Of a DNA stretch of 64,000 nt, positions 2,209 through 31,158 are shown one piece after another. Position numbers and translations under genes: made by a program. Below the pieces are notes generated by a model. That model was not told the origin of the DNA. It worked only from the letters and a program-made list of their open reading frames with translations, and ran no database searches. Within the stretch, counting starts at the first letter, position 1. Every line of letters begins with the position of its first letter. The stretch is from Cyanobium sp. Morenito 9A2 (GTDB lineage Bacteria; Cyanobacteriota; Cyanobacteriia; PCC-6307; Cyanobiaceae): contig NZ_JAGQBJ010000009.1 in the NCBI RefSeq assembly GCF_024345575.1, positions 62,001 through 126,000 of the forward strand, read 5' to 3'.

Positions 2209-3258
2209 ATGGCTCCGCGAAGCAGCACCTCAAGAACCGTTTGGGAGCTGCGGGCCGAGCAGGTCATGGATCGGGTGTTCCAGGGGGCCTTCGCGGCCCC
2301 AGCCCCGGCGAGCACGGCACACCCTCCGGCGGCGGCCCAAAGCACCGCTGAGGCGGCGAGAGCGGCGGCCAGGGAGTCAGTACGAACGGCAGCAGCCGTC
2401 GCTGCAGGGGTGGGTGCTGTTGCCAGCCCAGCGGAGCCGGCGATTGAAGTGGAGGTGCGAGAAGAGCGCCCCTTTGGCTCCCGGTTCTTCGGCGGTGCCC
2501 GCCTCTTCCCGATCGATTGGCCCGCGCCCGAGTGGACCCGGGAAATGCGGCACTGGAAGCCCCAGCTCCCCAGCCTCAGCCTCGATGCCCAGCTCCTGGC
2601 GGCCGTGCTCGGCCTGTTGGCCCTGTTCACGGCCGGTTCCTCGGTGCTGCTCTGGCGCGGCTGGAACCAGGCCCGCCTGGACCTGCGCCAGGAGCGCAAC
2701 CTGCAGCTGCTGGAACGCCTGCGCACGATTGGCTTCGGCGCCACGGTTGCCTCGGCGCCCGCGGCGCCCCTGCTGGACCCTGCCAGCAAGGACAAGACCC
2801 TGACCCTGGGTGCCACCGGCGTCTCCACCCTGCCGCCACCGCCACCGGAGGAGGCCTGGATGCAGCAGCTGGAACCCCTCCAAGGTGGTGGGGGAGGCGG
2901 TGGTGGCGGCTCGGCCGCGGCCCCGCGCTCCTCCAACGTGCTGCGGGTGCCCGTCAGCCGCTCCCTCACCCATCCCGGCCCGCCACCGCCTGTCGGTGCC
3001 TCCTCGGCCGGAAGCTCCGTCTCCCGGAGCGATGGGGATGGGGGCAGTGCTGGAGGCGGGCCTGAGCTGGTGGGCGTGGTGCAAGTGCCAGGGCGCTCCG
3101 GCTCAGCGATCTTCCAGGTGGGCAGCAGCTCCTCCAGTGTTGGGGTGGGCGAGATGATCGGCTCCAGCGGCTGGCGGCTGCGCTCCGCCTCGGGCGACTC
3201 CGCCGTGATCGAGAAGGGCTCCACCCAACGGATGGTCAGCATCAGCGGCGGTTTTTGA
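2209..3258 (+). CDS. membrane-anchored Pro/Gly/Ser-rich protein, PilP/GspC-like C-terminus
   Basis: This is a 349-residue protein with an alanine-rich cytoplasmic N-terminus, one membrane segment at about residues 128-150 (LLAAVLGLLALFTAGSSVLL), and a periplasmic part. The periplasmic part holds low-complexity Pro and poly-Gly stretches around residues 205-245. The last 60 residues read like a small beta domain with VGVVQVPG, SAIFQVG and RMVSISGG. One TM helix, a flexible linker and a small beta domain resemble inner-membrane alignment proteins of type IV pili or type II secretion (PilP, GspC). That likeness is inferred from architecture and short motifs, not from a clear family match. It follows mnmG by 10 bases. 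Its stop codon is the first base triplet of a 15-bp tandem repeat. Confidence 0.85.
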   Translation: MAPRSSTSRTVWELRAEQVMDRVFQGAFAAPAPASTAHPPAAAQSTAEAARAAARESVRTAAAVAAGVGAVASPAEPAIEVEVREERPFGSRFFGGARLFPIDWPAPEWTREMRHWKPQLPSLSLDAQLLAAVLGLLALFTAGSSVLLWRGWNQARLDLRQERNLQLLERLRTIGFGATVASAPAAPLLDPASKDKTLTLGATGVSTLPPPPPEEAWMQQLEPLQGGGGGGGGGSAAAPRSSNVLRVPVSRSLTHPGPPPPVGASSAGSSVSRSDGDGGSAGGGPELVGVVQVPGRSGSAIFQVGSSSSSVGVGEMIGSSGWRLRSASGDSAVIEKGSTQRMVSISGGF

Positions 3259-30334: not shown

Positions 30335-30766
30335 CCCCCACGGCCATTTGCGGTTCCACGAACTCAGGGGACAGAACACTCTCCGTTTCCTCAGGGATCG
30401 GAATGCCGATGCAGAAGAAGACCACACGCGTGCCGCTCAGATCGATGGGCCGGATGGACCAGCCCGGATCGTCCCCATCTCAGCCCAACACCCTCCAGCC
30501 GGGCCGACCGTCCTGGGCACGGGCAGCGGTCGCCGATGACCGCCGCGCCCCAGGGGAACCGGCCCCCACCCTCCAGCGCCCAGCCACTCGAGGCCTTGGG
30601 TCATGAAGCAGTCGCCCCGTCGCATCAGCCCGCCCCATCGCAGCGATCGACACCCAGACCCCCTCGATCCACCGTTGCGTCCGCTCGGCCCACCCCGCAA
30701 CCGTGGATGACACTGCCGAAGGACTCCTCGATCCGCGGGCCCTGGACAACCGCCTGCCAATCTGCT
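30294..30766. other. 473-base gap without a supported gene
   Basis: After the tandem repeat the frames on both strands are short or low in complexity. One minus-strand stretch reads VVFFCIGIPIPEETESV, which looks protein-like but has no extended context. No RNA gene was recognised. Confidence 0.45.
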
Positions 30767-30780
30767 AGTACAGATGTACA
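30767..30780 (+). promoter_or_regulatory. LexA-like (SOS box) operator
   Basis: AGTACAGATGTACA contains the perfect inverted repeat GTACA-GA-TGTAC and fits the cyanobacterial LexA box consensus (AGTACAnATGTACT type), missing only the last base. It lies 18 bases before ATG 30798 of the cysteine-rich gene, the place expected for a repressor site over the promoter. Confidence 0.6.
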
Positions 30781-30797
30781 CCCTGCCGTGCCGACCG

Positions 30798-31091
30798 ATG
30801 GTGACCCTTCCCCTCGCTGGCCTTGAGCTCTCCCGCCTTGAGCCCTCCCGCTGGGAAGCGATCGAAGACTGGCCCTGGCTTGGGCACCCCCTGCTCAACG
30901 CCACCCGCAGCCGCAAGGTCTGCATGACCTGCCACTGGTTCCGCCACCACGCGGCCCCCGGCGGAATTCCCGTGCTCACCTGCCAGCTGCACCAGGGCCT
31001 GCTAGCCCACGGCGACCACCTCACCCACCGCTGCTCGGGCTGGACGGACGACCTGCACCGCCAGCGCGGCTGGGCACCGGAAGTGGCCTGA
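30798..31091 (+). CDS. cysteine-rich small protein, possible metal-binding, behind a LexA-like box
   Basis: This is a 97-residue protein from ATG 30798. ATG 30774 is also in frame but lies inside the LexA-like box. The N-terminal half is helical (LPLAGLELSRLEPSRWEAIE). The C-terminal half carries KVCMTCHWFRHHAA, then VLTCQLHQGLLAHGDHL, then RCSGWTDD: four cysteines in the order C-x2-C-x16-C-x16-C followed by x2-W-T, with several histidines. This is a plausible zinc or iron-sulfur site. The same cysteine and WT spacing recurs in the protein at 45778-46035. Function is unknown; the upstream operator suggests induction by DNA damage. Confidence 0.78.
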   Translation: MVTLPLAGLELSRLEPSRWEAIEDWPWLGHPLLNATRSRKVCMTCHWFRHHAAPGGIPVLTCQLHQGLLAHGDHLTHRCSGWTDDLHRQRGWAPEVA

Positions 31092-31158
31092 GGGGGGCTG
31101 CCCGCATCCACGGCCAAGGTTGCGCCATGCCACGATTGAGTCACCCCATGGTTGTTCC

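Follow-up and report, generated by a model that had tools for sequence, protein, structure and literature searches.

Organization of the locus

The window (the whole 64-kb stretch of DNA analysed here) carries a small gene for a protein with four conserved cysteines, preceded by a predicted promoter and a LexA-type operator that overlap one another, and followed on the same strand by a phosphohydrolase-like gene. The features of the locus are the following:

30743..30748, + strand: predicted -35 element TGGACA, from sequence, with a 17-bp spacer to the -10 element
30763..30771, + strand: predicted extended -10 element TGC-TAGTAC, from sequence, with putative promoter function
30767..30780, + strand: LexA-type operator AGTACAGATGTACA, which overlaps both the -10 element and the probable start of transcription; from sequence and conservation
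30774..30776, + strand: alternative in-frame ATG inside the operator, giving a 105-aa form; less likely start
30798..31091, + strand: gene for the 97-aa four-cysteine protein, stop codon 31089-31091; purifying selection and conserved residues
31159..31824, + strand: HD_4-domain phosphohydrolase-like gene (Pfam PF13328, E 8.8e-19), with an in-frame TTG at 31120

The operator described in the initial annotation, AGTACAGATGTACA with its perfect inverted repeat GTACA-GA-TGTAC, is present at 30767-30780 and ends 17 bases before ATG 30798. Translation probably begins at this ATG, since the alternative ATG at 30774 would precede the predicted transcript. The operator covers both the -10 element and the predicted transcription start, so that LexA bound there would exclude RNA polymerase.

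In the sister species (G001), the region from about 30740 of the window through the HD_4 gene is collinear, including the gene, its promoter with a predicted -35 element, and the downstream HD and methyltransferase genes; the operator of this syntenic copy has 2 mismatches. The HD gene may therefore be co-transcribed with the four-cysteine gene within the genus, and the two possibly form a local SOS operon. A conserved operon partner was not found among 82 loci (the best 80 of 209 named relatives, one further copy, L083, and the window gene), in which the largest cluster of neighbouring ORFs comprised 20 of the 82 loci at scattered distances. A DUF1651 gene follows the copy at L083 (positions 2949-3206 of that locus, the only one with a Pfam match), and DNA similar to this stretch lies downstream of the copies at L223, L231 and L035.

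Conservation of the operator upstream of related genes

The palindrome alone proves nothing, because pattern counts exceed controls neither in the window nor in the genome: AGTACN4GTACT with at most 2 mismatches occurs once in the 64-kb window against 3.3 times expected by shuffling, and AGTACNNNTGTAC with at most 1 mismatch has 29 matches genome-wide against 41 for the reversed control, i.e. without enrichment. A weight matrix was derived from the boxes of 73 loci among the best 80 of 209 named relatives, namely those with a box at no more than 2 mismatches and enough upstream sequence; the window gene was left out, and the background base frequencies were of our own choice. With this matrix the window operator scores 19.6 and the next-best site in the window 7.9, and none of 20 Markov copies of the window reached 19.6 (highest score 16.9). 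The final base of the window operator is A where the consensus has T.

Decisive support for the predicted operator comes from its conservation upstream of relatives. After 3 of the best 80 of 209 named loci had been dropped for short upstream sequence, 65 of the remaining 77 carried, in the 260 nt upstream, a box differing at no more than 1 position (31 of these boxes were perfect), counts that do not represent independent events because the named loci include close relatives. In the same test, 59 permuted palindromes averaged 0.5 of 77 and never exceeded 7. Position is conserved as well, with 66 of the 73 boxes at no more than 1 mismatch over the best 80 of 209 loci lying within 200 nt before the conserved domain. 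The initial annotation had proposed to look for the box in front of orthologues, and there it is indeed found: among the 70 intact named loci (best 80 of 209), 62 have it at up to 1 mismatch, 7 at 2 mismatches, and a single one, L113, lacks it. The 7 broken loci of the same set divide into 3 with a box at up to 1 mismatch, 1 at 2 mismatches and 3 with none. A lone 2-mismatch box is weak evidence, since permuted controls at this threshold average 7.6 of 77 (maximum 24); that of the broken locus L115, which lies at another position, is probably due to chance.

A box at up to 1 mismatch also precedes 27 of 30 best-match loci, the exceptions including L034 (2 mismatches) and L037 (at a contig edge, none); at L062, a perfect box lies just within the start of the match. 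The proportion is 12 of 20 for further copies, and 14 of 30 for all places, fragments included, in five genomes; the boxless 8 and 16, respectively, are mostly, though not all, fragments or stop-bearing. In genome G271, which we take to be that of strain WH7803, a perfect box starts 24 nt before the matched stretch.

The promoter context recurs together with the box. A T directly precedes it in 63 of the 66 loci whose box has no more than 1 mismatch (best 80 of 209 named), which yields the hexamer TAGTAC. Upstream of this hexamer, TTGAC was encountered 50 times at a distance of 16-18 bp, and 15 times at a 13-bp spacer, in 73 loci of the same set.

The same operator type in the host genome

The 3.10-Mb genome from which the window is taken encodes one LexA (TIGR00498 search) and one RecA above the NCBIfam cut-off. 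The LexA ORF contains the stretches VAAGG, GDSM and TTLKH, which we take, by eye, to be those of LexA cleavage and catalysis. A second TIGR00498 match is confined to model positions 80-199 and leaves out the DNA-binding part; this umuD-like gene is followed, 0.7 kb further on, by a umuC-like gene in the same orientation. Operators were found upstream of recA (GGTACGTCTGTACT, matrix score 18.5), of the umuD-like gene (GGTATATTTGTACT, 18.3) and of dprA (AGTACAAATGTATT, 24.1), and a weaker one in front of lexA (GGTTCATCTGTATT, 11.3). The comparison with the genome's own lexA and recA suggested at the outset thus reveals one operator type, shared by recA, umuD and dprA and more weakly by lexA.

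The likeness to the cyanobacterial LexA operator noted initially also holds against the literature. According to the available text of PMC2921402, TAGTACA-N2-TGTACTA precedes recA, umuC, umuD and lexA of Prochlorococcus, and the corresponding part of PMC3091678 gives the LexA operator of marine picocyanobacteria as AGTACWNWTGTACT, i.e. the same consensus. The box of dprA is in line with the suggestion, made in the accessible portion of PMC7393227, that DprA is a LexA target in strain WH7803.

Only 4 sites in the genome match AGTACNNNTGTAC with zero mismatches, and 2 of these, the window operator among them, precede the two longest copies of the four-cysteine family. The second long copy (C8:29565-29813) has a perfect box in front; a third place, on contig C20, is a fragment without box. 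Other box-like sites were observed along the way. The dprA box (L018 1494-1514, C11:17173) has 1 mismatch and lies 7 nt before the ORF start. The umuC-like gene has a box-like site of its own 25 nt before the ORF start (L009 1476-1514, C2:17983). Another site (L026 1501-1515, C25:76734) extends exactly to the start codon of a 334-aa ORF whose matches, all weak, are to Pyr_redox; the ORF is possibly a further LexA target.

A conserved four-cysteine protein

In the ORF from ATG 30798, cysteines stand at positions 42, 45, 62 and 79, confirming the C-x2-C ... C-x16-C pattern noted initially (C62-x16-C79). Residues C42, C45, C62, F48, G72, H74, L75 and W82 are invariant in 58 aligned sequences, and C79 is kept in 57 of the 58. 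W25 and L33 are also conserved, the motif GWxPEVA stands at the C-terminus, and 40 of the 58 sequences end in AA or VA. Ratios of dN/dS between 0.13 and 0.45 in eight pairs of family genes indicate purifying selection. A second copy, L079, has lost some cysteines, so the full set is not kept in every copy. C42, C45, C62 and C79 are candidates for metal ligands, and it is these four conserved cysteines that suggest metal binding.

That the protein belongs to no named family, as first stated, holds for Pfam, NCBIfam, PHROGs, PADLOC and the sequences of the PDB. Searches with 24 members returned no convincing family match in the first four of these: the top Pfam matches had E 0.0011 in one member and E 0.0014 in two, and the lowest E values elsewhere were 0.0044 (PHROGs), 0.014 (NCBIfam) and 0.015 (PADLOC, where 3 of 24 members gave matches at this value or worse and the window protein none). 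Several candidates were judged to be chance matches, namely Csf1 (PADLOC, E 0.015, 2 of 24 members), starch synthase (the best PDB sequence match, E 0.026), and HiPIP and zinc-finger models matched by single members at E 0.001-0.1. No transmembrane stretch was seen by eye in the protein. Two AlphaFold models, with mean pLDDT of 45.2 and 43.5, were too poor for use and therefore lend no fold support to metal binding.

Distribution and copy number

When 60 genomes, its own among them, were searched for the window protein, 31 contained matches, and all of these belong to the same taxonomic family, presumably Cyanobiaceae. A profile search of genomes at least 90% complete recovered the four-cysteine family from 248 of the 271 genomes belonging to that taxonomic family, and all 13 genomes that matched in a draw of 194 from the phylum also belong to it. 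The best 80 of 209 relatives examined in the named collection are titled Prochlorococcus, Synechococcus, Cyanobium, Synechococcaceae, Prochlorococcaceae or unnamed cyanobacteria. The initial annotation had treated a single gene; the gene stands as described, but it is in fact one member of a multi-copy family. Several copies are found in many genomes, and the most observed is 15 places in one 2.5-Mb genome (G124:C1, which we take to be Synechococcus CC9605), many of them fragments and some with perfect boxes. Such a pattern is one of rapid birth and death of copies.

Some copies within a genome are alike over only about 335 bp, from near the promoter to the stop codon, which may reflect either mobility or selection acting on this unit; other pairs share longer flanks. 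A family gene with its box was found on one IMG/VR contig. A tblastn search with the window protein returned nothing from 50,697 phage records or from 72,556 plasmid records.

Mitomycin-induced genes and a second small family

In genome G270, apparently that of strain CC9311, umuDC occupy 1,476.7-1,478.4 kb, and a family gene with a 1-mismatch box lies at 1,489.7 kb, beside ruvA and 11.3 kb past umuDC. The available text of PMC3744912 describes a mitomycin-induced cluster downstream of umuDC in CC9311 (sync1608-1613, 1615 and 1620-1623). Judged by position, the family copy would lie near or inside this cluster, and its place fits the vicinity of sync1620-1623. The same text reports that mitomycin C raises recA, lexA, umuC and the uncharacterized sync1474/SYNW1405 in two strains, and that 15 of 27 genes with a predicted LexA box in CC9311 and 10 of 46 in WH8102 were up under mitomycin C, so that a box does not guarantee induction (PMC3744912).

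The idea that the four-cysteine family is itself sync1474/SYNW1405 was rejected. Interpolation between lexA (sync_0831) and umuD (sync_1606) places sync1474 near 1,356 kb of the CC9311 chromosome, and tblastn of the CC9311 copy against a 280-kb stretch found only itself, at 1,489.7 kb. Close to the interpolated position lies a DUF3104 ORF (PF11302, E 9.2e-27; L253 18480-18794, chromosome approx. 1,358,479-1,358,793), immediately preceded by the LexA-like box AGTTCAGACGTACT. This ORF is probably sync1474/SYNW1405 and would represent a second SOS family of uncharacterized proteins, an assignment that depends on the interpolation and on the presumed identity of the strain.

LexA control of the four-cysteine family was not found in the open-licence literature, where the gene is unnamed in the binding and expression results found; the supplementary tables of predicted LexA sites in PMC3091678 may include some members as hypothetical genes. 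The part of PMC9426592 that is available holds nothing on the family gene.

Proposed function and alternative explanations

Because it shares its DNA switch with DNA-repair genes, the four-cysteine gene very probably belongs to the DNA-damage response, and we are confident, on the strength of the conserved operator, that it would prove a direct LexA target. In the mechanism that we infer, a LexA dimer on the operator of the undamaged cell would cover the -10 element and the start of a sigma-70-type promoter and keep the gene off. Upon damage, RecA filaments on single-stranded DNA would lead to LexA self-cleavage and thereby free the promoter. The small four-cysteine protein, probably zinc-binding and probably cytosolic, would then be made briefly and, while the cell pauses after damage, would most likely bind another protein or a nucleic acid, a role like that of non-homologous small SOS proteins in other lineages. 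We put this proposal forward tentatively, at somewhat less than an even chance, in the form of a lineage-specific SOS effector that has a metal site. It is tempting to go further and see in the protein the missing picocyanobacterial SOS checkpoint effector, released from LexA, zinc-containing and rapidly degraded (as its frequent C-terminal AA or VA, in 40 of 58 sequences, might imply), which would halt division or replication during repair and whose dosage would be set by duplication of the cassette; so specific a scenario is speculative and, taken as a whole, quite unlikely.

Different functions can be imagined for a gene under the same switch. The unit of promoter, operator and gene might be a spreading, partly selfish element (a toxin gene, a gene of phage response or one belonging to an island) that borrows the SOS switch to time its own expression. 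Up to 15 places per genome, many of them fragments and some with stops, the likeness between some copies over no more than a promoter-to-stop unit of about 335 bp, and the lack of conserved neighbours all fit such an element, as do a cluster of recombinase-like ORFs near 11 of 82 loci (one a confirmed Pfam Resolvase), the gene and box on an IMG/VR contig, and the DUF1651-like gene after some copies, a domain that the available text of PMC5490813 reports in host responses to cyanophage. Nevertheless, we consider it unlikely, given the occurrence of the gene throughout most of the taxonomic family (248 of 271 genomes), purifying selection, the longer flanks common to other copy pairs, the want of a match for the window protein in the phage and plasmid records and in PADLOC (where the best of the matches by 3 of 24 members had E 0.015), and the fact that no partner gene is kept beside the family gene. 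Under LexA control, the protein might instead hold an iron-sulphur cluster and act as a redox carrier or sensor for oxidative damage by light or UV, rather than in a checkpoint or in repair. The four conserved cysteines have aromatic residues nearby, and the Pfam HiPIP model (PF01355) gave a very weak match to a single member; an E value of 0.09 in 1 of 24 members is at chance level, however, the 2-16-16 spacing of the cysteines is unlike that of HiPIP, and no usable fold is at hand, which together make this role improbable.

The remaining alternatives concern the switch itself. Another repressor of the same operator type, such as a second LexA-like helix-turn-helix regulator, might occupy the site, given that LexA binding is deduced here from sequence and that the box of lexA itself is weak (11.3). 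This is very unlikely in a genome with one LexA over the TIGR00498 cut-off, a second match devoid of the DNA-binding part, and an operator common to recA and umuD. Finally, a chance palindrome in front of a gene unrelated to SOS would be compatible with the insignificant pattern counts in window and genome; it is contradicted by conservation before relatives, position-specific enrichment and the matrix score, and its probability is negligible.

Relation to known SOS systems

Cells of Prochlorococcus and Synechococcus are exposed to intense sunlight, and their means of coping with DNA damage are understood only in part. A family that is present in 248 of 271 genomes and carries a recA-type switch is a strong candidate for an unstudied SOS output, and suggests that the picocyanobacterial SOS set holds lineage-specific unknowns besides DUF3104. 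The gene for the small protein occurs with a box in what appear to be the cultured strains WH7803 and CC9311.

Among known systems, SulA, YneA and SosA are small, lineage-specific effectors under SOS control that are non-homologous between lineages. The four-cysteine protein resembles them in its small size, its putative SOS-type box and its lack of homology, and differs from them in its four cysteines, in the absence of a profile match to a named family and in having no transmembrane stretch by eye. A degradation signal in its apolar, Ala-rich C-terminus is an idea only. A 'sulA' homologue is listed separately for picocyanobacteria in the available text of PMC5101192.

DUF3104 (PF11302) offers a further parallel, as a small uncharacterized protein with a LexA-like box directly before its gene in CC9311; it is nevertheless another Pfam family, and sync1474, probably its representative, is mitomycin-induced according to the accessible text of PMC3744912. 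Compared with the picocyanobacterial LexA regulon (recA, lexA, umuCD and dprA), the four-cysteine gene shares the operator and its closeness to the start codon, and its genome encodes a LexA of the cleavable type. Unlike the genes of that regulon, it often occurs in several copies, was confined, among the genomes searched, to the window's taxonomic family, and encodes a product without a match to known families of repair, recombination or mutagenesis. As judged from these sequence features, the four-cysteine family is very likely a new, well-conserved, lineage-specific and multi-copy member of the known LexA/SOS regulon.
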